Assembly (NCBI RefSeq): GCF_007750395.1
Contig: NZ_CP036281.1
Coordinates: forward strand, 1,327,001-1,391,000
From: Polystyrenella longa
GTDB lineage: Bacteria > Planctomycetota > Planctomycetia > Planctomycetales > Planctomycetaceae
Reading direction: 5' to 3'
Length of the DNA: 64,000 bases
Both the position numbers and the translations under genes were made by a program. Of this stretch, positions 10,324 through 23,178 are shown piece by piece (positions within the stretch are counted from its first letter, which is position 1; the number at the start of each line of letters is the position of its first letter). The notes under the pieces were generated by a model. It did no database searches, had not been told where the DNA came from, and saw nothing but the letters and a program-made list of their open reading frames with translations.

Positions 10324-10995
10324 GCTTTAAACAAGTAAGAGCAAAAATATAGGTCGGAGCCAGAGTTCCTGAAGAGGGAGAATGCTCTCCGCAGTGTATA
10401 CCTGTCTGGGAAATTAATACCTGAACAAAAGGGCGGGGCAGGCACGGGAAGTGTTCGGTCCGTTTTTGCATTTCCGGGAGATAACATTGCGATTCGCCTC
10501 GAAATCGGTTTTAATAGATAGACAACTATTGATGCATCCTGCCGTTCCCTATGGGCTTTGGTGACATCGACTTCCGACTCAGGAGCTGGCTCTGTCCCTC
10601 TTGAATCAGAGAGAGAAGTCCACCAGCAGTTCCGGAACCGACTCCGCAGGACCCACCTGACTGATTTTCACACACCTTCAGTCACTTATTCCTACCTGAT
10701 ACGAAACCCTCCGAGCGATTTCATTCACCGGCTGACCTTCCAGACAAAAGCCTCCAGGGCTGGAACCACGGTTGGTCGTTAATTCGAGTGAACTCCTCTT
10801 ATTGAATGTTTCCTCCCGCATGCGGCACGTCCGGTTGCCAGTGACTATGTCCTCTTCGGCATGGTTCCGGCATTCTCGGTGAACTCGATGATCTAAATCA
10901 TGTTCTCAATTCAGAACGTGGAGAGAACAAGCGAGTTAAGCGGTGCTCTGTTTGCGGCGAGGTCGAATTCAACCAACCTGCACGGGACGTTTAAC
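10324..10995. other. intergenic region, 672 bp
   Basis: Long spacer before the RND pump genes. Short open frames occur (for example 10558-10782 plus) but lack ribosome-binding sites and recognisable composition. It most likely carries the promoter and leader of the efflux operon. No RNA gene recognised. Confidence 0.45.
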
Positions 10996-12252
10996 ATGAA
11001 ATTTCTGTGGCCCCCTCTAGCAATTTTGACGTGCATCAGCGCTGGCTGGATGATGTACCGCGACTCTATGAATGCGGAACCCGCGTTGGAAACAAAAGAG
11101 AAACCCAAGACCGCGATGGCCGTCGAGGTAACTCATTTGTCCAAAAGGGACCTCATCGAGTCCGTCGATCTGGTCGGCAGTCTTGAAGCTTCGGCCGATA
11201 TTCAAATCTATACTCGGGGCGAAGGTTACCTGGTAGGTCTTCCGTTTGACGTGCAGGATAAAGTTAAAGAAGGTGACGTCGTCGCTGTGCTGGATGAATC
11301 AGAACAGCGAGAACTGGTTGCCAGTACTTCCGCGGCACTGAAAGTGACCCGGGCGAAACTGAAAGCCCAGCAGACCAAGCTCGATCAGTCCCTCAACAAC
11401 TACCGTCGTCAGCAAGAACTGGATAAATCGGGAGTGGCCACCAGTCAACAGCTGGAAGCGGCCAAAGCTCAGTTTGAAATTTCTCAGGCTGAGCTGGAAT
11501 TGCAACAGGCGGAAGTCGATCAAGCGATTGCCAATCACAATTCCAGCGAAATGAACTTGAAGCAGATGCGCGTCCTATCGCCCGTTACTGGGTTTGTCGC
11601 ACAACGCTTCACCCATGTGGGCGATCTCGTTTCCTCTGAAAAAGAAATTATGCGGATCGTTTCCATCGACAAGGTGAAAACCGTCGTCAATATCGTCGAA
11701 AAAGATTACGAAAAAGTTCGTATGGGACAGACGGCCGAAATTCGGACGGACACGTTCCCGGGAACCGTTTTTAAAGGAACAGTGGTTCGTAAATCACCCG
11801 TAGTCGATCCCACAACTCGTATGGCTGAAGTCCACATTGAAATTCCCAACTCCGACCTCGCCCTGAAACCAGGTATGCACGGTCGCGTGAGAATTCGAAC
11901 GAACGTCATTCCCCGGGCAGATGTTTTGCCGATCGCTTCTTTACTCCAACATAAAGACAAAACCAGCTTATATGTTGTCGAAGGAGAACCCGCCGTTACT
12001 TCCTTGCGTGAAGTTGAAACGGGCGCTAGTGACGGTGAATATATTGAAATTGTCTCCGGTGTCGGTGTGGAAGATCGTATCGTCGCCCTGGGAAGTCAAA
12101 TGGTCGATGATGGCGATGAAGTCGCTGTTCTTGATCATGTTGATCGGGATCAGAAACTCGCCGTTCCCGATCCCGAAGTCGTCGCTCCCCAATCCAAATT
12201 GGGTGCGGTCATTCCGCTAAGTGAAAAAGTGACCGCCAGCGCTGCGGAATAA
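10996..12252 (+). CDS. RND efflux membrane-fusion protein (HlyD/AcrA type)
   Basis: Periplasmic adaptor of a tripartite efflux pump. I place the start at ATG 10996, where a signal-anchor begins (MKFLWPPLAILTCIS); an in-frame ATG at 10900 would add 32 polar residues before it and has no ribosome-binding site. The order is: N-terminal signal/anchor, first lipoyl half (GSLEASADIQIYTRGEGYL), long alpha-hairpin (about residues 110-190, rich in Lys, Gln, Glu), second lipoyl half (LSPVTGFVAQRFTHVGDLV), beta-barrel (DTFPGTVFKGTVVRKSP) and membrane-proximal domain. The pump gene follows after 41 bp. No outer-membrane TolC-like gene is nearby, so the pump must use one encoded elsewhere or work without it. 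Confidence 0.9.
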   Translation: MKFLWPPLAILTCISAGWMMYRDSMNAEPALETKEKPKTAMAVEVTHLSKRDLIESVDLVGSLEASADIQIYTRGEGYLVGLPFDVQDKVKEGDVVAVLDESEQRELVASTSAALKVTRAKLKAQQTKLDQSLNNYRRQQELDKSGVATSQQLEAAKAQFEISQAELELQQAEVDQAIANHNSSEMNLKQMRVLSPVTGFVAQRFTHVGDLVSSEKEIMRIVSIDKVKTVVNIVEKDYEKVRMGQTAEIRTDTFPGTVFKGTVVRKSPVVDPTTRMAEVHIEIPNSDLALKPGMHGRVRIRTNVIPRADVLPIASLLQHKDKTSLYVVEGEPAVTSLREVETGASDGEYIEIVSGVGVEDRIVALGSQMVDDGDEVAVLDHVDRDQKLAVPDPEVVAPQSKLGAVIPLSEKVTASAAE

Positions 12253-12293
12253 CATTCAGTTTCAATCCGCCTGCTACCCCCTAGAGTTGATTT

Positions 12294-15200
12294 ATGTCTT
12301 TGACCAAAATATCGGTCCATCGTCCGATCACCACCTTGATGTGCAGTCTGGTCGTGTTGATTCTCGGATACACGGCATTCGAGCGATTGCCAATCGACTT
12401 GATGCCGGAGTTTACCTATCCGACGTTGACCATCGAAGCGGTTTATGACGGTGCGGGGCCGGAAGAAGTTGAAACACAAATTGCCCGCCCGCTCGAACAG
12501 GCCATCAGCACTGTCTCTGGAGTCGAGCAGGTCGCCAGCTTCGTGACCGAAGCCAACTGTCGGGTCTTTGCCCGGTTTGCCTGGGGGACTGATCTTGATG
12601 AAGCCGCCAGTGACATGCGTGCCCGTGTCGATCGTGCCCGACGTGGTTTGCCCGATGAAGTCGACGCTCCCGTCGTGCGTAAGTACAACAGCAACGATCG
12701 TCCCCTTCTGTTTGTTTCGTATCAATTGGGTGACAAGGAAGACCTGATCACTGCGTCGCAATACGCCGAAGAAACCTTGCTTCCCATGTTGGAACGGATC
12801 GAAGGTGTCGCCGCTGCCCGAATCCGTGGACATCATCGCCGGGAAATTCAAATCAACCTCGACCGCCATAAACTTGAATCACTCAACATGAGTGTGAACG
12901 AAGTTGTGGAGGCGTTGAGGCGGGAAAGTATTAATCAACCGGCAGGGAACTACGAACAGGGGAATATCCAGCTTCTGGTTCGCAGTAAAGGAGAATTCCA
13001 GAATATCACCGAGATGAAACAGTCTGTGGTTCGTTCGGATGACAAATCGATGATCCGCTTGATCGACGTCGCGGATGTTATTGATGGTGAAGAAGAACGA
13101 ACCGAACGAACCCGGGTCAATGGCGTGCCCGGGATCATGTTTATGATTTACAAACAGACTGGTGCCAATACCGTCGAAGTGAGTGATAAAATTCACGAAG
13201 AAATCGAGAATTACAACCGCTCTTCGCAAGATGGAACATTAGTTCTGCAATTCGACCGGGCCGATTTCATTCGAGATTCCATCGCCAATATGCAGCAAAC
13301 CGGTTTGTACGGGATGGCGCTTGCTGTCGTAGTGCTATTCGTCTTTTTGCAGAACCTGCGCAGCACATTCGTGATTGCCATCTCCATACCGCTCGCCATC
13401 CTTGCCACCATCGTCCTGATTTACTTCAAAGGTTACACATTAAATCTGGTGACTTTGGGCGGACTGACATTGGGGATTGGATTGCTCGTCGATAACTCCA
13501 TTGTGGTCATTGAATCGATCTTTCGTAAAATTGATGATGGGATGGAAATCCGGGAAGCGGCTGTGAAGGGGACCAACGAAGTTGCCTCGGCGATTGTCGC
13601 CAGTACGTTAACAACGTTGATCGTGTTTTTGCCCCTATTGTTCATCGAAGGCCGGACCGGTATTACTTTGGAGCAGATGGCCTGGGTCGTTTCCTTCTCT
13701 CTATTCTGTTCGTTGATCAGCAGCCTCAGCCTGACGCCAGTACTGACGGCTTACTGGTTGAAAAATTATTCGGCTGCTTCTTCATCCGAGACCAAAGAGC
13801 CATTCTCTCTATTGCGACCCATACACCGCTTGAACTCCGCTGTTATTAATGTCATGGAAGCGACCTACCGCGTGACATTAGGCCTCTGCTTGCGTCACGC
13901 CAATCCAGTTGGGTTCGCTTTGTTGCTCGCATTTTCATTGTGTGTTGGTCTGATGCCTCGAATCGGAACCGAGTACTTTCCGGAGACCGACGAAGGAGAT
14001 CTGATCATCATCGCCCGTATGGCTTCGGGAATTCAGGTGGAACAATTAAACGAACAGGCACTCGCACTCGAAAAACTGATTCAAACCGGAGTGAAAGAGG
14101 AAAAACTCGTCACGACGACTGTCGGGGGAACGGCCAATGATGCAGATGACTGGAACGAGAGCATTTACCGTGTGAAGTTCCCGAAAAAGTCCGAACGAAC
14201 CCGCACGATCGAAGAGATTCGCAAAGAGATGGCGGACAAAATCGGTGCGATGCCTGGAATGAAGGTGACCGTGCGGACTAACTCTCAGTCCGGCATGAGC
14301 ATGATCATCTCCAATAATTCGAATGCAGGAAAACTCCAACTCGAAATTCGCGGACACAATACAGATACAGCAGAACGAATCGCCGAACGGCTGGTGACGA
14401 GACTGGAAACGATCCCAGGTCTGATTAATGTCGAAGCTGACAAGCAGAATCGTCGTCCCGAAATGTCGGCACGCATCAATCGGGAGAAAGCGTCATTGAT
14501 GGGAGTCTCCGTCAGTGATATCAGTCAGGCGCTGGAAACCTCAGTTAAAGGAACTCAGGCCATTGTTTACCGGGAAGATGGGGATGAGTTTAATGTGCTC
14601 GTCAGGCTGGACCCGGACGACCGAAAAAAAATCACAGACGTGGAGCAGGTGGGAGTCCGTTCCGGTTCCGGAGCAATTGTTCCCCTCCGCAACCTGATTG
14701 AATTCGAGCAGGAAGAAGTTCCGATGAATATCCGTCGGAATGACAAAGAGCGGGTTCTGGACGTTCACGCCGATGTCGAAGAACGCGACTTAGGCTCGGT
14801 CGTCGAAGATGTTACCCGCGAAATCAATGAAATGGATCTCCCCGTTGGATATTCCATTCACATTGCCGGAAATTGGAAAGAACAACAGGAAAGTTTCAGA
14901 GCACTCACCTTTGGACTGTGCCTGGCGGTCGTGCTGATGTACATGGTGATGGCATCCCAGTTTGAGTCTCTGTGGGATCCCCTGATGATTCTGAGTGCAC
15001 TTCCGCTGGGAGTCATCGGTGTTGTACTGACCCTCTGGTTGACGAACACCACGTTAAACGTACAGTCCTTCATTGGGCTGATCATCTTGTCTGGAATCGT
15101 GGTGAATAACGCCATTGTCCTCGTCGATTACTTGAACCAGCTTCGCCGCGATAACAAATTCGACAGCCTGGATGAATTAATTCTGCATGGATCGATTCGC

Positions 15201-15404
15201 CGTTTTCGTCCGATCATGATGACCACGTTGACTACCATTCTGGCCATGCTGCCCATTGCGTTTGGTTGGGGTGAAGGGAGCGAAGTCCAAGCTCCAATGG
15301 CGCGTGTGGTTGTCGGTGGTTTGATCTCGGGAACCTTGATAACCTTGATCGCGATCCCGTTGATCTATCGCACCTCTTGTCGCTGGATCAACCGATCAGT
15401 TTGA
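12294..15404 (+). CDS. RND-family inner-membrane efflux transporter (AcrB/HAE type)
   Basis: 1036 residues, the normal length for RND pumps. Twelve membrane spans and two large periplasmic loops are evident. It begins with the family-typical entry ISVHRPITTLMCSLVVLILG, followed by LPIDLMPEFTYP and the porter-domain phrase GAGPEEVETQIARPLE. The proton-relay span (LGIGLLVDNSIVVIESI) carries one Asp (D400) followed by Asn, where AcrB has Asp-Asp. The C-terminal half repeats the fold, with LSGIVVNNAIVLVDYLNQLR and GSIRRFRPIMMTTLTTILAMLPIAFG. Substrate unknown. It is co-directional with its adaptor gene and ends 14 bp from a convergent gene. Confidence 0.95.
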   Translation: MSLTKISVHRPITTLMCSLVVLILGYTAFERLPIDLMPEFTYPTLTIEAVYDGAGPEEVETQIARPLEQAISTVSGVEQVASFVTEANCRVFARFAWGTDLDEAASDMRARVDRARRGLPDEVDAPVVRKYNSNDRPLLFVSYQLGDKEDLITASQYAEETLLPMLERIEGVAAARIRGHHRREIQINLDRHKLESLNMSVNEVVEALRRESINQPAGNYEQGNIQLLVRSKGEFQNITEMKQSVVRSDDKSMIRLIDVADVIDGEEERTERTRVNGVPGIMFMIYKQTGANTVEVSDKIHEEIENYNRSSQDGTLVLQFDRADFIRDSIANMQQTGLYGMALAVVVLFVFLQNLRSTFVIAISIPLAILATIVLIYFKGYTLNLVTLGGLTLGIGLLVDNSIVVIESIFRKIDDGMEIREAAVKGTNEVASAIVASTLTTLIVFLPLLFIEGRTGITLEQMAWVVSFSLFCSLISSLSLTPVLTAYWLKNYSAASSSETKEPFSLLRPIHRLNSAVINVMEATYRVTLGLCLRHANPVGFALLLAFSLCVGLMPRIGTEYFPETDEGDLIIIARMASGIQVEQLNEQALALEKLIQTGVKEEKLVTTTVGGTANDADDWNESIYRVKFPKKSERTRTIEEIRKEMADKIGAMPGMKVTVRTNSQSGMSMIISNNSNAGKLQLEIRGHNTDTAERIAERLVTRLETIPGLINVEADKQNRRPEMSARINREKASLMGVSVSDISQALETSVKGTQAIVYREDGDEFNVLVRLDPDDRKKITDVEQVGVRSGSGAIVPLRNLIEFEQEEVPMNIRRNDKERVLDVHADVEERDLGSVVEDVTREINEMDLPVGYSIHIAGNWKEQQESFRALTFGLCLAVVLMYMVMASQFESLWDPLMILSALPLGVIGVVLTLWLTNTTLNVQSFIGLIILSGIVVNNAIVLVDYLNQLRRDNKFDSLDELILHGSIRRFRPIMMTTLTTILAMLPIAFGWGEGSEVQAPMARVVVGGLISGTLITLIAIPLIYRTSCRWINRSV

Positions 15405-15418
15405 TTGGAATTGGCTCA

Positions 15419-16543
15419 CTATTGCGATTCAGACTGGGATCCGTTGGGTGAACCAGCAATGGGCGCTCCAAAAGGAATGGGCCGGGCAGCAATGAGAAAT
15501 CCATTATGGTGCACTACTTCTTTGATCTTTTGAAAAGTCGCGAAGCTGTCGGGATAGACCCAGAACGTTAAGGTCGAATTGGAATCCGCTTGCTGCAACG
15601 CCGCTTGGAATGAAGAAAGTGGTTCCAATGCTTTTTCGAAAGATTCGGCCAGCAGCAATTCATCTTCGACTAGCTCCCAGCGTTCTACACCCACCTTCAT
15701 CATGCCCCGCCCCTGTTGCAGTTGTTCCACTGCAGAAAGCGACTCGCGAGCGACCTTGTAAGTCATTCGGAATCCTCGAATCGGACCAACTTCGCCGTTG
15801 TACTCGTTGAATTTCATGATCCAGCTCAGGTTGTCCGGAATCTCTTCTTTCATCTCGGTGACCAGTTCGTCGATCGGAAGCACTGAGATTTTGTTGTATT
15901 TGACCTGAAAGTGGATTTCTTTACCTGCAACCCGTTTGCTGACTGGTGTCACTTCGTGCCGGAGTTCTTTCGTCGGTGATTCTTTCTGTTCGACTTCTTC
16001 CAGCACGCGAGTCAATTGATTAATTCGGCTTTTGGTTTTGTCGTGCGAATGTTGCAATTGAGCCCGCATTTGTTCGGCATGATCTTTAAGTTGAACTAAC
16101 TTCTGTACCTGCTGATTCAGAGATCCAGTTTGTTCGTTCCTCTTCTGGAGTTCCGCATTTAGCGCTTTGATCTGTGCTGACTGCTCTGTGGATTGATCAG
16201 TTAGATCGACCAGTTGAGCTTCCAGTTGCTCCACCTCGGCCAGCAGTTGTTCATCCAGTTCAATCACTTTCGGAGTTGGAGCGACGACCGGCTCGGCGAC
16301 CGGTTCTGACTCGGGCTGCGGTTCCGTTTCTGCTTCCAGAATCGCTTCTGGTTCTTCGGCGTCCGCAACAGCGATCGGTTCCGAAGCATCTGATTCGATG
16401 CTCATCGTGGGAATGGGAGACTGACTGACGCGAACTGCGGCAATAACAATCAGGATGATCAGAATCCCGACGATATTTGCAATGATATCGAGGAAGGAGT
16501 CCGATCCGATTTCGACCTCGGGAGTTGTTCGTCGCCGACTCAT
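15419..16543 (-). CDS. TolR/ExbD-like single-span protein with proton-site Asp (last gene of motor operon)
   Basis: 374 residues. One membrane span at about 17-37 begins FLDIIANIVGILIILIVIA. Asp19 sits just where TolR, ExbD and MotB carry the ion-binding aspartate. After the membrane come an acidic Pro/Glu linker (residues 50-95), a coiled coil (about 95-190, LAEVEQLEAQLVDLTDQ and similar) and a C-terminal periplasmic domain (about 205-360) containing KEIHFQVKYNKISVLPIDELV and FWVYPDSFATFQKIKEV. That domain resembles two segments of the neighbouring protein encoded at 16590-18878. The gene lies 46 bp after that neighbour and is third in the operon behind a MotA/TolQ/ExbB-type channel. The TolR/ExbD assignment is inferred from topology and the Asp; the C-terminal domain is not one I recognise. 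Confidence 0.72.
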   Translation of the reverse strand: MSRRRTTPEVEIGSDSFLDIIANIVGILIILIVIAAVRVSQSPIPTMSIESDASEPIAVADAEEPEAILEAETEPQPESEPVAEPVVAPTPKVIELDEQLLAEVEQLEAQLVDLTDQSTEQSAQIKALNAELQKRNEQTGSLNQQVQKLVQLKDHAEQMRAQLQHSHDKTKSRINQLTRVLEEVEQKESPTKELRHEVTPVSKRVAGKEIHFQVKYNKISVLPIDELVTEMKEEIPDNLSWIMKFNEYNGEVGPIRGFRMTYKVARESLSAVEQLQQGRGMMKVGVERWELVEDELLLAESFEKALEPLSSFQAALQQADSNSTLTFWVYPDSFATFQKIKEVVHHNGFLIAARPIPFGAPIAGSPNGSQSESQ

Positions 16544-16589
16544 ACGTCGTTCACCTTTTCTGGATCAGCACGGCCATCGCCGCGCAGGT

Positions 16590-18878
16590 TTAATCCGCGC
16601 CCTGCAGCAATAAGATTTCTTCAACAGATTCGTTCAGCAATGGTTTCTCGATTTGAAAAGGAGCAGGGCGTTCCAGTTCAAATTCCGTTTCGTAGTCCAC
16701 CTCTTTGGTAGGTAACTGCAACAGCAGTCGCTCCAACGTCACGGTTCCACCGGGCAGGACGACAAACTCCAGGTAGGGCGTCCAGTAAAATCCGCTCGGA
16801 AGCCGCGACCAGGTCGAGACAATCTCCCCAATTTGCTGTTTAAATTCTTCGGCAATTTCTAAGTCATCCCGATTGATATCGACGTCGATCGGCTGCCCTC
16901 CCGCGATTCGGATTTTCTCTCCATCAATAATGACTTCCAGTTTCTGTTGCATCCGCATTCGTCTGGGCATCTCAAATCGACTCGGCTCTCCACCCTCTCC
17001 CTGCTGCTGTGGTGAGCCAAACATCGAGCTTTGTCCCTGCGCATCCGTGGGCGGGGCGGAGGAACTATTATTGCTGTCCTGGAACCAGGGCGCTGTTTGA
17101 TTCGATAATCCCGGTGAACCCATTTGTGAACTGGGACGAGAACTGATTCTCTGCTGGGTTGAGTCGGATAAAGTTGGCCGCTTTGAATCGGAAAAAGATC
17201 GTGTGTATTGCTCTTCCAAGTCGGCAGAGCGCTCTCCCTGGCCGTTCAGTCCGCTTCGTGGATCGATCTCTCGAATCGATTTCATCTCCGGGTCCGAATC
17301 GCCGGAACCGTTTTGACCAAACCCGTTGTTTTCGAATTCCCTGTTTTCGAAACCGTTGTTTGCGAAGCCGTTATTCTCGAGTCCATTCTCTAATTCTGCA
17401 GGTTCTGGAGACCGACGCTGTCGGGCAAGCTCGGACTGTTGTTCGTCGAGATTCATTAATGGCGAAGCTGGTTTCAGTTCTGTTTCACCCGAACCGCCAC
17501 CATTGTTCGTCGGAGATTGTGATTCCAATGAATTGCCTGAGGATGCCGGATTCTTCAATTCCTCTGCGGTATTGGCGTATCCGGATCCGGGTGAACCACT
17601 TCGCTCTTCGCGGCTATTTCCGGAAGGAGAGCCGAGCTTCGATACGCGTGCGTCAAGTTCTTCCCAATGGGATTTTGTTCTGCGAGGTGCGGGTGTCATT
17701 TCGATGAATCGACCTATATTCGGATCAAATCGCATCTGTCTTGCGGGAGGTTCGGAAGGGGTGTTCGCTGCTCCAAGTGAGCCATGTCCACCGGAATCTC
17801 GATGCCTGTTTCGAAACTCGTCCGCTGATAAGTGTTTGTTATTGGCTTGTAAATCGGCCAGTCGCATCGCCTGTTTGGATGGTTTGTTCTTGAGTGCTCC
17901 CTCAACCGCGGCGCGGCAGCGAGACGTCGCCTCTTCGTTTGGGGCAGGCCATTTCACTGGATACGATTCGGGTAACAATTCGTAGCCCGATTGTACTTTC
18001 AAAGAAGAAAGCATTTTCTGTGCAGCATAGAAAGAGACAGAGCCACTTGGACGGACGACCATCAGGAGATAGGGTTCCGTGACTTCTCGACCCGCGCGGC
18101 GATCTTCTTCTTCCCAGAATTCGATTAATGCCTGGGCTCCAGCGGCCAGTGGATTGTCGTGGGAAGTAAATCCACGCACATCTTCGGCCGTTAAGGCGAT
18201 GCCTTCCGGTTGGAACGTAATCGAGTCTTCCTCACACTCAATCAGTATAGGACGTCGCACTGTCCCCATTTGGCCGTCGTAAGGAATAATGGCAAACTCG
18301 CTTTGAGCCGTTCTGACATCGGTTTGTTTACGTTCAATCTGTTTTTCCAGTTCCACACCGAGCGACTCAAGTTCTTCGGCCTCGCTCTCAATCTCCTTCG
18401 CCCGTTCCTGTTCTTCTTTCAGCTGGGCTTCCAGTTGAGCCTGCTCTGCTAACGTCTGGTTGGCTTGTTTTTTGTAGGTGACCAATTGCTGCTTGATTTT
18501 CTGTGTTTGATCCTGCAATTGTCGTTGCTGCTGCTGCCGGATTTCCCTGTTTTGTTTCAGTTGGCTTAAGCGTGTTCGCCAGGGAATGTTCGGATCAATC
18601 GGCTCGACAGGTTCCGGTTTGACGACCGCCACTGGAGGCGCAGGTTCTTCTGCGACGGGTGACTCAGCCTCTTTAACTTCTTCGATCTCTTCGATGACAG
18701 GTTCAACCGTCGGTTCTGGTTCCTCGACCACAACTTGCTGCGCTGCCAGCGTATCGGTGCGGATTTGCTGGGTAATGACAAGGAACAGAAAGATCAACGC
18801 ACCCATCGCGCACAACAGAACCGTCAGGAAAGGAAACAGCGAGACCTGTGTTCCCTGCGGTTGTTGGCGTCGACTCAT
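16590..18878 (-). CDS. long TolR/MotB-like single-span protein lacking the membrane Asp
   Basis: 762 residues. The N-terminus parallels the downstream partner: MSRR start, then a span FLTVLLCAMGALIFLFLVI at 17-36, but with Thr19 where the partner has Asp19. A Pro/Glu linker (50-95) and a Gln/Glu-rich coiled coil (about 105-195) follow. Module A lies at 195-310 (FAIIPYDGQMG ... YLLMVVRPSGSVSFYAAQKML). A long disordered, Asn/Gly/Ser/Pro-rich stretch covers about 340-640, including tandem NGF/ENNGF repeats at 493-523. Module B lies at about 645-735 (LEVIIDGEKIRI ... YLEFVVLPGGTVTLERLLLQL). Modules A and B resemble each other and the C-terminal domain of the partner. It is the second gene of the operon, 94 bp after the channel gene. 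Not a recognised named family; planctomycete relatives are probably annotated as hypothetical. Confidence 0.7.
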   Translation of the reverse strand: MSRRQQPQGTQVSLFPFLTVLLCAMGALIFLFLVITQQIRTDTLAAQQVVVEEPEPTVEPVIEEIEEVKEAESPVAEEPAPPVAVVKPEPVEPIDPNIPWRTRLSQLKQNREIRQQQQRQLQDQTQKIKQQLVTYKKQANQTLAEQAQLEAQLKEEQERAKEIESEAEELESLGVELEKQIERKQTDVRTAQSEFAIIPYDGQMGTVRRPILIECEEDSITFQPEGIALTAEDVRGFTSHDNPLAAGAQALIEFWEEEDRRAGREVTEPYLLMVVRPSGSVSFYAAQKMLSSLKVQSGYELLPESYPVKWPAPNEEATSRCRAAVEGALKNKPSKQAMRLADLQANNKHLSADEFRNRHRDSGGHGSLGAANTPSEPPARQMRFDPNIGRFIEMTPAPRRTKSHWEELDARVSKLGSPSGNSREERSGSPGSGYANTAEELKNPASSGNSLESQSPTNNGGGSGETELKPASPLMNLDEQQSELARQRRSPEPAELENGLENNGFANNGFENREFENNGFGQNGSGDSDPEMKSIREIDPRSGLNGQGERSADLEEQYTRSFSDSKRPTLSDSTQQRISSRPSSQMGSPGLSNQTAPWFQDSNNSSSAPPTDAQGQSSMFGSPQQQGEGGEPSRFEMPRRMRMQQKLEVIIDGEKIRIAGGQPIDVDINRDDLEIAEEFKQQIGEIVSTWSRLPSGFYWTPYLEFVVLPGGTVTLERLLLQLPTKEVDYETEFELERPAPFQIEKPLLNESVEEILLLQGAD
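17310..17400 (-). repeat. in-gene tandem repeat encoding NGF/ENNGF units
   Basis: Inside the 762-residue motor-operon protein (residues about 493-523) the codons for Glu-Asn-Asn-Gly-Phe-like units recur (NGLENNGFANNGFENREFENNG). The DNA repeats a GTTTTCGAA-CCGTTGTT-like pattern on the plus strand. Such tracts change length by slippage; it lies in a region that looks disordered. Confidence 0.6.
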
Positions 18879-18972
18879 CGAAGTTGATCCAGGTTAGATG
18901 CGAGTGGTAGAAATGACGAAAGAAAATTCCGTCGGACGAGCAATGATTGATCTGCGTAGTATCTCAAACGGT

Positions 18973-20334
18973 TCAGGCGGCGCGACGGGCTTTGGTCGTC
19001 AGCAGGGCGACGGCTGCGTTGAGACTGTGCAATGTTTCTTCGAACGTATCTGTCGAGCGAACAATTTCCAGGTTCTGGGCCAGCGACCGTTGTAAATGGT
19101 TCAGCTCTTTTTCTTCCGAGATGATCGACAGCAGTAATTCTTCCTGTTTCTGTAACTGCTCCAGGTGGCCCGCACTACCGGCTGCCGCGCGTTCGATCTC
19201 GGTGCTGATCACGGTCGAAGACTGATCCAAACGAGTCAGAAATTGATCCATCAACACCTGCAGTGCATCTTGTGACAAGTTTTGCTGTGCATCTACCCGG
19301 TTACCCAGGCGTTCCACCATCTGAACCAGTTCGCCCCGTAAGTCCTGTAAATGGTCGCTATGGTTTTGTAATGTTTCTCGCATGCCCTGATGAAGTTGGG
19401 CCGTCAATTCTTCTTTTTGCTCATCAATGACTTCCATCCAGGAATGCCGCATTTGATCCAGTGACTCCTGCCACTGCGCCGTCTGCCGCTTGATCAGTGA
19501 TTCCGTTTCGTGCATGAGCTGTTGAGCCGCTTCTGCTTCTACGTGCAACAGACCGTGCGTGTTGCCTTCCTCCTGAGAGAACATCGGTAGCAGGACTTTA
19601 ATACCAAACGTTTCCACTTGGGAAAGCAGATGCTGTTCCGATCGTTCCACCAGAAAAGAACCAAAGACCAACCCCATCGACAACGTCAACGCCAGAGCCG
19701 TGGTATCGAATGCGATCGCCAGCCCGCTGGCGACCTGGTCGGGAGAGGTCTGAATTTGTTCGAGATTGACATTCGCCAGCGCGACGGTAATCCCGATGAC
19801 CGTACCCAGAAAACCGAGAATAGGTACGGCCCAGATGATCGTTCGCAGCAAACCATAACTTCGCTGGAGCTCTTCAATCGAAAGTTCTGCGAGGTATTTC
19901 AGGTGCTCTTCCAGCCCCTTGCTATTTCCCCGACCCATCAGGTATCGACCCGTATCGCGCAAGCGGGTGAGTAACCAGCTTGAACCGAAGAGCTGCATGT
20001 GCTCTTCCGATTTCATCTCGAGGGCTTGAGCGTTTTCCAGTGCGGAAAGATTGGGATTATATGTCTGCTCGATCAGTTCGATTTCGAAGGCGATCTTCTG
20101 ACGCCGCATCTGAATCGATTTGATCCCTAAAAAGGCAATCCCCACCATAAACAGATAAGTGGTCGCGTATTCCAACGGGTGATTGCAGAAATATCGATTC
20201 AGCAGTGCATCGTATTTAGGTATGTGAGGAATCGTCGCGTAAAAACCGACCGACAGCAGACTTCCCCATAAAAATGGGGAGCAAAAAATCATTCGGAGCC
20301 AGTTGGTGGAACGAGTGGGATGAAGGGTCGACAT
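18973..20334 (-). CDS. MotA/TolQ/ExbB-type proton channel with long coiled-coil tail
   Basis: Counted from ATG 20334 the protein has 453 residues; an in-frame TTG at 20358 would add eight. Hydrophobic segments fall at about 15-36, 56-72, 165-187 and 203-228. The last two form the family signature: AVPILGFLGTVIGITVALA, then GLAIAFDTTALALTLSMGLVFGSF with the conserved polar Thr pair (T211-T212). A cytoplasmic helical insert lies between spans 2 and 3, as in TolQ/ExbB. Beyond residue 230 there is a roughly 220-residue tail of heptad-like helix (MRHSWMEVIDEQKEELTAQL, RLGNRVDAQQNLSQDALQ). Such a tail is absent from TolQ/ExbB but recalls long-tailed MotA-like proteins such as ZorA. It is the first gene of a three-gene operon with two TolR/ExbD-like partners. 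Probably an ion-driven envelope motor; its load is unknown. Confidence 0.85.
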   Translation of the reverse strand: MSTLHPTRSTNWLRMIFCSPFLWGSLLSVGFYATIPHIPKYDALLNRYFCNHPLEYATTYLFMVGIAFLGIKSIQMRRQKIAFEIELIEQTYNPNLSALENAQALEMKSEEHMQLFGSSWLLTRLRDTGRYLMGRGNSKGLEEHLKYLAELSIEELQRSYGLLRTIIWAVPILGFLGTVIGITVALANVNLEQIQTSPDQVASGLAIAFDTTALALTLSMGLVFGSFLVERSEQHLLSQVETFGIKVLLPMFSQEEGNTHGLLHVEAEAAQQLMHETESLIKRQTAQWQESLDQMRHSWMEVIDEQKEELTAQLHQGMRETLQNHSDHLQDLRGELVQMVERLGNRVDAQQNLSQDALQVLMDQFLTRLDQSSTVISTEIERAAAGSAGHLEQLQKQEELLLSIISEEKELNHLQRSLAQNLEIVRSTDTFEETLHSLNAAVALLTTKARRAA

Positions 20335-20595: not shown

Positions 20596-23178
20596 ATGCT
20601 TTGGGCGTGTTCTCTATTTTTGCTGTCTTTCCTAAGTTGTTGGTTTGCGGATTCAGCATTCTCCTCAGAGCCGCTGCTCCGAGTTGAGATGGAAGTCGAC
20701 TTCGGTAAGGACCACGGCCAAAACCTGGGTTCGCTCTTTGAGGTATACGACGCGGATGGGAATGTCGTTGCCGGAGCTGGCTTCGTTGGCACTTACAACT
20801 CTTACATTCGCAATGATCGCGAACGACTGCATTTCTTTTTGAAATCGGCAGAGGCGAAACCGGAAGTTGAGCCTCTCCTGCGAGTGAACGAGACGACGGG
20901 TGTCTATCTGTCCGATCTTCGCGAACAACTCTACGCACGAGGCCGTTCGGCGAAGGATGATCGATTCTACGAATGGAATTCCGAATCGGCCGATTGGAAC
21001 GTGAAGGAAGAAATGACGCAGTACGACTTTTTCGTCGCCGGGAAAATACTTCACGTAGAAGATCGAAAGATTGATTACGACGGCGAAACGATCCTCGACT
21101 TGAGTGATCAGGACTTGATCATCGGAGAACGATACTATGCTGGTGGATATCTCTTCCTGAAAACCTACACGGCTGAACGCCGTTTGGAAACAAATCAACT
21201 GCAGGCCATTCCCTGGTCCGCTTATCAGGATGATCTCTCGATTGATCTGGAGAAGGCTATTGCATTGCCGTTGCGTTCGGACAAAGAGTTTGTCTATTCC
21301 TTTGGCCAATTAAACGGCGACATTCTCGCCGCGACCAACACGGGAGGAGTCTACCGGTTCCGAGCAGCGAAATGGGAACCGTTGGTTGAGCCGATTATGA
21401 CCACGAGCTTTCAAGTTTACGCGATGCTTAACTATTACGACCGACTGTTGATGGGACATTATCCTACGGGTGAGTTGTATGAGTATGATGGTGAAAGCTT
21501 AATCTTACTGGAGGACTGGCCTCCCGTTCTTTCCGGAGTCAGTCCCAGCGCAAGAGAAGCCCAGTCGTTGATGATTTACGGGGGCGACTTGTACGTCGGT
21601 GTCTGGCCGTGGGCAGAAGTCTGGCGATACGACCAGAACCAGCAAGACTGGGTCTTTGCTAAGCGGATGTTTGAGCATCCTGCACTTACAGACAAAGTCG
21701 TTCACCCCTATGAAGATGAAACGAAAGGAGTCGCGGAAGTTTATAACCTGTGGGGACAGCGAGTCACCAGCCTCATTACGATGCACGATTCGTTGTACAT
21801 TTCGACCTCATCCAAATCGGGATTTGCATACGATCCCAAATTTGATTTCCTCTCCGGCGAAGAATTAGAGGACTATGGTCGTGTCTATCGGTTGAAACAA
21901 CCGGGACAACTGACCGTTCCCACGACCTGGCCCGAAGGACCGCAGAAATTCCTCTTCGAACTCGACGATGAGTCGATGCGAATCATGCAGAACGGGAAAT
22001 TGATTGCGGAGCAAAAGCTATCGACCTCGGAGTTAATCGATCAGCAACCACAGCGAATCGTTTGGGGCAGGGGCGTGTATGGAAAATTATCAGGTGATCT
22101 ACTCAGTCGAAAATCGAATCTCGATCAGCCCGTGGTGGGGGCGTACTTGAACTTTGGCAAACTGTTTCAGTCTGCGGGAACGATCCCGGAAAAACAGAAA
22201 ACGATTGACGACGCACTCGATCGATTTCAGTCCAGTGGTTTCAATACGGTTTATCCGTATGTGACGACCACTTCCGGTAAAGTGTATTACCCGAGTGAAC
22301 TGCTTACGGAAAACCTCTCCGCTGATTTTGATTGCGTGCAATACCTGATCGATCAAGCCGATAATAGAAACCTGCAGGTCTTCCCTGTCTTCTGCGTTCT
22401 GTCGTGCGGGCATCATCATCCGACAGGAATACTGGAACAGCATCCTGAATGGGCATTGCGTACTCCGGAAGGCGAACCGATGGGCCATATCTCCGCGACG
22501 AATCCCGAGGCACGAGATTTCATTACTAGTTCGATCAAGGAGTTTGTAGATCGCTACTCGACCGAAGGAATTCTGCTCGACTACCTGCGGTACTACAACC
22601 GGCCAACGTTGTTGGATGCAGCATCAGTAGAAGTCTTTGATGAATGGAAACAACAGCAGGCAGAACAAGATGAAGCTGAACTGATTCAACAGTATAAAGA
22701 AACCGGTATTACTGAACTGGCAAACCAGATCAGTGTCGCTGTTCGAAGGGGGCGTCCTGAACGGGAGATTGCCATTTATTCTTGGGGACCTCATGTCGCC
22801 GATCACCATCAGGTAGCGCAGCCATGGCCACTCTGGTCTCAGCGAGGCTATATCGACATGGTAAATATCTCAGGGTATTGTTATCCCGATAACTACGGTG
22901 ACAAATACCTGGACGTCTTTAAGCAGCGAATAGGGACCGCATTGGAACTCAATAAGGCGAACCACGGTCGGGCTGATGTGACTTTCTGCTTGGGAGTAAA
23001 AACGTCCCACGGAAAGATTCAATCCGCCTCCTGGATTAAGGACTACCTGCACATCGCCAGTGAACTGGGTGTTGATGGAACGTTGTTGTTCACCTGGCAT
23101 ACTCTGCAGCCCTGGTTGGATGAAGTTGATCGTGAAGGCTACATCTCTGAATTCCAACAGGAGCTTCAGTCACCATAA
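20596..23178 (+). CDS. secreted protein: propeller-like N-terminal part plus GHL10 (DUF187-like) TIM barrel
   Basis: 860 residues. ATG 20596 is preceded by AAGGA (8 bases) and followed by a signal peptide (LWACSLFLLSFLSCWFADSAFS). The middle (about 190-480) has short repeated strands with phrases such as GGVYRFRAAKWEPL, TGELYEYDGESLILLEDWP and AEVWRYDQNQQDWV, like a Kelch or other beta-propeller. From about residue 510 a glycoside-hydrolase-like 10 barrel is visible: GFNTVYPYVTTTSGKVYYPSE, QVFPVFCVLSCGHHHPTG, EGILLDYLRYYNRPT, and IDMVNISGYCYPDNYGDKY. GHL10 proteins are putative carbohydrate-active enzymes of uncertain substrate. The propeller could bind a polymer or guide the enzyme to it. 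Candidate acidic residues include Asp in ILLDYLRYY. The fusion is the notable point. Confidence 0.72.
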   Translation: MLWACSLFLLSFLSCWFADSAFSSEPLLRVEMEVDFGKDHGQNLGSLFEVYDADGNVVAGAGFVGTYNSYIRNDRERLHFFLKSAEAKPEVEPLLRVNETTGVYLSDLREQLYARGRSAKDDRFYEWNSESADWNVKEEMTQYDFFVAGKILHVEDRKIDYDGETILDLSDQDLIIGERYYAGGYLFLKTYTAERRLETNQLQAIPWSAYQDDLSIDLEKAIALPLRSDKEFVYSFGQLNGDILAATNTGGVYRFRAAKWEPLVEPIMTTSFQVYAMLNYYDRLLMGHYPTGELYEYDGESLILLEDWPPVLSGVSPSAREAQSLMIYGGDLYVGVWPWAEVWRYDQNQQDWVFAKRMFEHPALTDKVVHPYEDETKGVAEVYNLWGQRVTSLITMHDSLYISTSSKSGFAYDPKFDFLSGEELEDYGRVYRLKQPGQLTVPTTWPEGPQKFLFELDDESMRIMQNGKLIAEQKLSTSELIDQQPQRIVWGRGVYGKLSGDLLSRKSNLDQPVVGAYLNFGKLFQSAGTIPEKQKTIDDALDRFQSSGFNTVYPYVTTTSGKVYYPSELLTENLSADFDCVQYLIDQADNRNLQVFPVFCVLSCGHHHPTGILEQHPEWALRTPEGEPMGHISATNPEARDFITSSIKEFVDRYSTEGILLDYLRYYNRPTLLDAASVEVFDEWKQQQAEQDEAELIQQYKETGITELANQISVAVRRGRPEREIAIYSWGPHVADHHQVAQPWPLWSQRGYIDMVNISGYCYPDNYGDKYLDVFKQRIGTALELNKANHGRADVTFCLGVKTSHGKIQSASWIKDYLHIASELGVDGTLLFTWHTLQPWLDEVDREGYISEFQQELQSP

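Follow-up and report, generated by a model that had tools for sequence, protein, structure and literature searches.

A candidate TolQR/ExbBD-kind motor in Planctomycetia with two unequal single-span partners

A 64,000-nucleotide stretch of the Polystyrenella longa genome (Planctomycetota; assembly GCF_007750395.1, contig NZ_CP036281.1, positions 1,327,001 to 1,391,000; hereafter the window, to which all positions refer) carries three consecutive minus-strand genes, here termed C, N and D. C is a channel gene of the TolQ/ExbB/MotA kind, and N and D encode two dissimilar proteins with a single membrane span each. Comparison with related loci suggests, with a probability of roughly 0.58, that the three products make up a single ion-driven motor akin to TolQR/ExbBD, in which a ring of C would surround an axle of one N and one D and in which D alone would mostly bear the Asp. 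Three features of the sequences speak for an N:D heterodimer: the matched lengths of N and D, the retention of an N-D pair where no cognate channel adjoins it, and the link between N residue 19 and the type of channel. The genes and the two residues in question are as follows.

18973-20334, minus strand: C, 453 amino acids, ATG start; TolQ/ExbB/MotA-like channel gene
16590-18878, minus strand: N, 762 amino acids; single-span partner without the Asp (Thr19); no PF02472 among 44 members scanned
15419-16543, minus strand: D, 374 amino acids; single-span partner with Asp19; no PF02472 among the families listed for 54 members scanned
18822-18824, minus strand: N Thr19, which occupies the place of the Asp in TolR/ExbD (locus survey)
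16487-16489, minus strand: D Asp19, putative ion-carrying residue; Asp in 128/128 readable loci

A first-pass annotation made from the letters of the window had described three genes in a row, the first encoding a MotA/TolQ/ExbB-type channel with a 220-residue helical tail and the others starting with MSRR and aligning without gaps as FLD and FLT at residues 17-19. This observation was confirmed. The open reading frames agree with the order and with spacers of 94 bp (C/N) and 46 bp (N/D), and C matches PF01618 (MotA_ExbB) over residues 137-237 with E 2.2e-13 and 50.5 bits against a curated cut-off of 22.9. Both partners begin MSRR, and profile-profile alignment places FLT of N and FLD of D in register with no gap (98.3% probability, E 1.8e-14, a score to which the coiled coil adds). 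The channel tail comes to about 215 residues and is probably helical, its only matches being weak and to coiled-coil-like families.

Conservation of the Asp asymmetry and its link to channel type

The survey covered 180 loci and the window, 40 of the regions being hand-picked from a match list. Removal of 14 duplicates and of three loci without N or D (L067, L068 and L076) left 164, namely 158 of the window's family (family 1) and 6 of a paralogous family 2. In the window's family, residue 19 of D was Asp in all 128 readable loci. Residue 19 of N, readable in 123, was Ala in 105, Asp in 11, Thr in 5 and Ser in 2; Ala is thus the usual state and the Thr of the window a local variant. Where both residues could be read (114 loci), Asp stood in D only in 104, in both partners in 10 and in N only in none. 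The recurrence of the split in 104/114 loci argues that it is not due to chance, and the asymmetry is conserved but not universal.

Family 2 repeats the pattern with another residue. Its N has Ser and its D has Asp in 6/6 aligned loci and in eight more (L303, L310-L314, L318, L319), while L315-L317 have Ser in N and no D was found there. N of this family (L069, L070, L072-L075, L303, L310-L319) is short, about 270 amino acids in most. Profile matches are stronger between N and family-2 N (99.7%) and between D and family-2 D (99.8%) than between N and D (98.3%), so the division into N and D looks older than both families. Among more distant loci, L301, L302, L304, L305 and L306, which have a TolQ-like gene and two partners, carry Asp in both, and in L300 Ser of N stands against Asp of D. 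Four of the five both-Asp loci have FxFQD as the N motif, with LLLDTICN or LFLDAISN as that of D, and L302 reads FLD in both partners. The both-Asp distant loci suggest that the asymmetric state may be derived; the unrooted trees cannot separate gain from loss.

Within the window's own genome, the Asp-less partner is peculiar to the C-N-D system, since the seven PF02472 (ExbD) matches of that genome, which include two clusters of a channel and two ExbD genes, all have the Asp (7/7).

The system is widespread in the class. In a sample of 118 class genomes (clear N, E <1e-20; cognate C, E <1e-60; counts read by hand from match tables), clear N was found in 97, of which 68 also had cognate C and 29, all with family code f2, lacked it; 21 genomes had neither. 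Cognate C was therefore present in 68/68 genomes outside f2 that have clear N. N matches with E between 1.2e-7 and 7.7e-6, of which there were three, were weak and counted as absent, 60 of 100 class genomes with an N match were fetched, and absences are provisional given the few candidates scored per genome. Across the phylum, C was detected at E 1e-40 in 24/294 genomes, 20/24 of which belong to Planctomycetia. Relatives of D in genome contigs numbered 461, of which the best 80, from planctomycetes, were kept. Gene order was C-N-D on one strand in 99/105 loci with all three genes, N-D-C in 5, and with C on the opposite strand in 1.

Residue 19 of N is linked to residue 210 of the channel. In Ala-type loci, residue 210 was Asp in 94/99 (Gly in 2, Asn in 1, not aligned in 2), and it was Asp in 5/5 Thr-type and 2/2 Ser-type loci. 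In Asp-type loci with a readable channel, it was Asn in 8/10, two unlinked channels included. The eight Asn210 channels of Asp-type loci form one clade, with a support of 100 by the Shimodaira-Hasegawa-like approximate likelihood ratio test (SH-aLRT), in a quick, unrooted tree of 85 rows built from a hand-chosen subset and without bootstrap; the N tree (76 rows) was made in the same way, and the D tree is likewise quick and lacks bootstrap. The N (span left out) and D proteins of the Asn210 loci fall at three places in their own trees, with Asp in N each time: beside L103/L126, near L129/L151/L127, and within the group of L240, L243 and L245. On these trees, N residue 19 follows the channel clade and not the N or D tree, with few independent events. 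Such a link between residue 19 and channel type is what a helix within the ring should show.

N and D of L104, L107, L108, L115 and L128 are closely related to those of L103 and L126, but the gene order is N-D-C and N has Asp for Ala. Their channel belongs to a different clade from that of L103/L126 (Asn210, His181), an apparent channel replacement. In the draft genomes of L234/L267 and L239/L268, the Asp-type N-D pair and its best channel match are on different contigs.

A general rule by which Asp210 of the channel stands in for the Asp missing from N was considered and rejected. It fits inside family 1, where Asn210 accompanies Asp in N, and is broken by distant both-Asp loci with an acidic residue 210 (Asp in L301; Glu in L302, L304 and L305), by L300 (Ser in N, Tyr210), by L072 and L318 of family 2 (Ser in N, Asn210), and by L096, L058 and L236 (see below).

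Pairing of N and D and the alternative arrangements

Span length, defined here as the number of residues between residue 19 and the periplasmic domain, averages 188 in N and 192 in D. Across 111 loci, the two lengths are correlated (r 0.89, slope 0.92), differ by no more than 10 residues in 81/111, and remain correlated by independent contrasts on the D tree (r 0.84); removal of the outlier L146 gives r 0.88 and 0.78, respectively. As a control, channel length correlates little with span length (r 0.15 for N, 0.03 for D). In the window's genus, the N and D lengths shift together (173/177, 186/190 and 194/197), and they also correlate in family 2 (rho 0.84, p 0.04, n=6). Envelope width alone does not set these lengths: seven genomes carry both families, and there the N length ranges from 148 to 233 in family 1 while family 2 is nearly constant (N 151-164, D 158-176).

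A second line of evidence comes from the f2 loci L202-L221, where N is present in 20/20 and an adjoining D in 18/20. No cognate channel stands beside the pair in the 20 loci read, and the FLx motif aligns in neither N nor D; in the 29 f2 genomes, no C match was better than 4.7e-37. An acidic residue lies within the best hydrophobic window of 11/38 f2 proteins, 8 of these residues being Glu and one of the 11 windows being misplaced. N and D thus stay together in the channel's absence, and f2 represents, to judge from its genes, a channel-free use of the N-D pair.

The f2 pair might also be taken to mean that C, N and D are no motor at all and instead make up a gated channel or an envelope scaffold with the Asp as a relic or sensor, f2 retaining N and D with neither cognate channel nor motif. 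This is very improbable, given that Asp is found in every readable D, that G174 and T212 of the channel are kept in 97/97 and 96/97 aligned Ala-type loci, and that channel and motifs are absent together in f2.

Were D to form a homodimer, an ordinary two-Asp axle would turn in the C ring (5:2), and N, placed outside the pore, would act as a transducer of the TolA/TonB kind and pair with D in the periplasm only. In its length, its disordered linker and its C-terminal domain, N does have the outline of TolA/TonB, the Asp is kept without exception in D alone, and both the f2 pair and the matched span lengths fit periplasmic pairing as well. The arrangement is nonetheless unlikely: the N span aligns in register with that of D, residue 19 of N is Asp in eleven loci, and its tracking of the channel clade is not needed of a helix outside the pore. 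N is also second in the operon, unlike the tolQRA order of channel, Asp protein and transducer. Moreover, the N span contains no His of the SHLS type, a motif described in PMC12204202, in either the window protein or the consensus of the N alignment. Identification of N as a TolA/TonB protein was rejected for want of this motif and survives only within the D-homodimer arrangement.

Alternatively, C could enter two separate complexes, one with D (C5:D2) that is active and one with N (C5:N2) that is inactive or regulatory, and motor activity would be set by their balance. Independent homodimers are not expected to have matched N and D span lengths or to be retained as a pair in f2, which makes this improbable, even though both partners have a motor-type span and the choice between homo- and heterodimer is likewise undecided for AglQ/AglS (PMC9389320).

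Several findings weigh against the N:D axle and against the motor itself. Asp in both partners, in 10/114 loci and the five distant ones, means that one Asp is no law. For the link with channel type, four to five independent pairs are available, three concordant and none opposed, and the sign test gives a median p of 0.25; with so few pairs it cannot reach p 0.05. Exceptions to the link are L096 (Asp in N, channel Asp210), L058 (Asp in N, Ala210) and L236 (Ala in N, Asn210). The span lengths are mismatched in L062, L064 and L071 (N 174-180, D 222-226) and in L229 (209 versus 176). Two controls are weakly positive, namely D span length versus the remainder of N (r 0.19; contrasts 0.19, p 0.04) and N span length versus the C-terminal part of D (r 0.24; contrasts 0.09, p 0.37). 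Neither helix length alone (r -0.18 for the Pro-free stretch; 0.23, contrasts 0.06) nor linker length alone (r 0.43, contrasts 0.14) accounts for the match. Structure comparison listed no TolR/ExbD match for the C-terminal domain of D. PF02472 was not matched by N or D of the window at E 1, nor, at E 0.01, was it listed for 44 N relatives (19 families) or among the 25 of 48 families, coiled-coil-like ones, shown for 54 D relatives, and profile comparison of N and D with the ExbDs of the window's genome was not significant.

Predicted structure and genomic setting

Single-chain AlphaFold2 models are described here with their predicted local distance difference test (pLDDT) scores. In the N model (mean pLDDT 67), a span (16-49) and a helix (98-191) precede a first domain of about 205-345, which is followed by a disordered stretch and, at 641-733, by a second domain. 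The D model (m9867fabcb3cc; mean pLDDT 82) has a span at 15-41, a helix at 98-187 and a C-terminal domain. Features of the three proteins are listed below.

19762-19833, minus strand: C residues 168-191, a span bearing the G174/T178 motif ILGFLGTVIGI, from the alignment and column counts
19657-19728, minus strand: C residues 203-226, span with AFDTTALAL; D210 codon at 19705-19707, adjoining T211/T212
18976-19623, minus strand: C residues 238-453, the long tail, probably helical and cytoplasmic, its membrane side being that expected from the family
18306-18587, minus strand: N residues 98-191, predicted long helix (AlphaFold2 mf4a758cf58ca; block pLDDT 86-92 for 101-180, 70 for 181-190)
17970-18302, minus strand: N residues 193-303, TolR/ExbD-like domain (structure comparison of the model)
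16965-17795, minus strand: N residues 362-638, linker rich in G/N/S/P, predicted mostly disordered (most blocks pLDDT <50), with a better-ordered short stretch near 381-400
16683-16946, minus strand: N residues 645-732, second small alpha/beta domain (structure comparison of the model)
15983-16252, minus strand: D residues 98-187, predicted long helix starting where that of N does (AlphaFold2 m9867fabcb3cc; block pLDDT 92-97 for 101-180)
15434-15928, minus strand: D residues 206-370, conserved C-terminal domain (WVYPDSF...GSPxGS; block pLDDT 88-97 for 211-360)

The first domain of N (residues 193-310 compared) resembles TolR 5by4 (Z 6.5, root-mean-square deviation [rmsd] 5.1, 88 aligned) and ExbD 8pek (Z 5.9, rmsd 4.1, 85 aligned), at middling Z. 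The second matches ExbD 8vgd (Z 6.5, rmsd 2.8, 69 aligned), again at middling Z and tied with chains of small ribosomal subunits, presumably uS11. Foldseek returned no match at E 0.001 for either the N or the D model, and neither protein of the window matched a curated family above its cut-off. A short tandem array of 15-bp units lies at 17323-17380, within the disordered part of N.

The operon is flanked by an efflux pair of the resistance-nodulation-division (RND) kind (HlyD-type and AcrB-type; 10900-15404), which is convergent with it, and by a divergent GHL10 glycosyl-hydrolase-like gene (20596-23178). As a clue to function, neighbours were uninformative: across 142 loci none was common, the best being a divergent upstream gene in 30/142. 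This gene (L089:2-3877 and 29 other loci) is large and, in the one example scanned, had no Pfam match at E 0.001; an AcrB-type gene lies close to the operon in 5/142 loci. A plasmid search gave no match, and the 3 promoter-like sites found are at chance level (2.9 expected).

The proposed motor and known systems

In the proposed motor, a ring of C, presumably of five subunits, would enclose an axle of one N helix and one D helix. The two helices would run on into the periplasm as a parallel two-stranded coiled coil capped by small domains, and N would contribute a long flexible arm bearing its second domain. The single Asp of D would take up an ion, the axle would move on by one ring subunit (72 degrees), and the ion would be let go. 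A lone Asp on such an N:D axle would use one ion per 72 degrees with five-fold periodicity, and a full turn would take five ions and five steps, not ten steps of 36 degrees. The fixed N side of the axle could bear a load in one place, and its unequal ends could direct that load, the N arm reaching outer layers and the D domain serving as an anchor. What is observed are the conserved genes, the two residues, the matched span lengths, the link of N residue 19 with channel type, and the lack of channel and motifs together in f2; the pentamer stoichiometry, heterodimer, rotation, ion, step size, load and function are all proposed by inference. The most specific form of the proposal, a natural 5:1:1 rotary motor with one ion site, five-fold periodicity and chemically fixed axle faces, in which a second Asp is switched with channel type to give matched one- and two-Asp versions, is offered tentatively, its chances being somewhat below even.

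Like TolQ-TolR and ExbB-ExbD (5:2), the C-N-D system combines a PF01618 channel with a single-span Asp partner, and the domain at N residues 193-303 resembles TolR/ExbD at a middling Z of 5.9-6.5. Unlike them, it has two unequal partners, one usually without Asp, a long channel tail, and a predicted helix of about 90 residues between span and domain in both N and D; PF02472 was not among the families listed for the 98 N and D proteins scanned.

Systems with one ExbB and two ExbD genes (ExbB-ExbD1-ExbD2) occur, for example, in Xanthomonas. In Myxococcus xanthus, AglR-AglQ-AglS likewise has one channel gene and two TolR-like partners (PMC9389320). AglQ and AglS both belong to PF02472 (PMC3169522) and are both predicted to bear the conserved Asp, their pairing as homo- or heterodimers being undecided (PMC9389320). 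In contrast, the window has Asp in D only, as do 104/114 loci, against 10/114 with both. A tolQ system of the Planctomycetes-Verrucomicrobia-Chlamydiae (PVC) group also combines a tolQ-like gene with two unlike tolR-like genes (PMC12204202). For the second family of that system, the helices proposed to rotate directly in the ring are heterologous Asp-bearing pairs with one Asp per monomer; the section describing them does not mention an Asp-less partner. The PVC system is linked to genes for a von Willebrand factor A (vWA) transducer and for tetratricopeptide repeat (TPR) proteins (PMC12204202), whereas C-N-D lacks a common neighbour, vWA and TPR genes not having been profile-searched.

The Zorya proteins ZorA-ZorB share a long-tailed channel with C, and the best sequence match of the C profile is PDB 8vvn (E 8.9e-8), which is taken to be a ZorA. 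However, the position of D210 is taken by Leu in 8vvn and by Trp in 8vvi, and C-N-D has two partners. C was rejected as a component of a Zorya defence system, scoring 15.8 bits against a cut-off of 190 for NF033914 and 15.0 against one of 700 for NF041792, with weak PADLOC ZorA matches (best E 1.6e-7).

The first-pass annotation had proposed that the dimer may be a one-Asp heterodimer, and it knew of no described counterpart. The heterodimer gains from comparison, the split being conserved in 104/114 loci and never reversed and the pairing of N and D with the channel having comparative evidence; it remains inferred, and the split is not universal. A survey of residue 19, as that annotation had suggested, thus found the D-only Asp in most loci and both-Asp partners in a minority (10/114 and the five distant loci), with f2 lacking either motif and having its pair without a cognate channel alongside; these minority cases are of the kind that the annotation had named as contrary to its reading. 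The claim of novelty was too strong, because one channel with two TolR-like partners is known from AglR/AglQ/AglS (PMC9389320, PMC3169522). What may be new is a regularly Asp-less partner, which was not found in the accessible text of the open-access literature searched.

C-N-D would represent a widespread envelope machine of Planctomycetia, a description of which was not found in that literature. The turnstile model gives 5:2 motors two equal, alternating sites and one ion per 36 degrees, and the review that sets it out (PMC9389320) regards ten-fold symmetry as 'almost certain to be a universal feature'. If the proposal holds, a one-site motor would break this ten-fold rule and allow the need for two alternating sites to be tested directly, and close one- and two-Asp relatives, such as L103/L126 and L104/L107, would offer a ready natural experiment.

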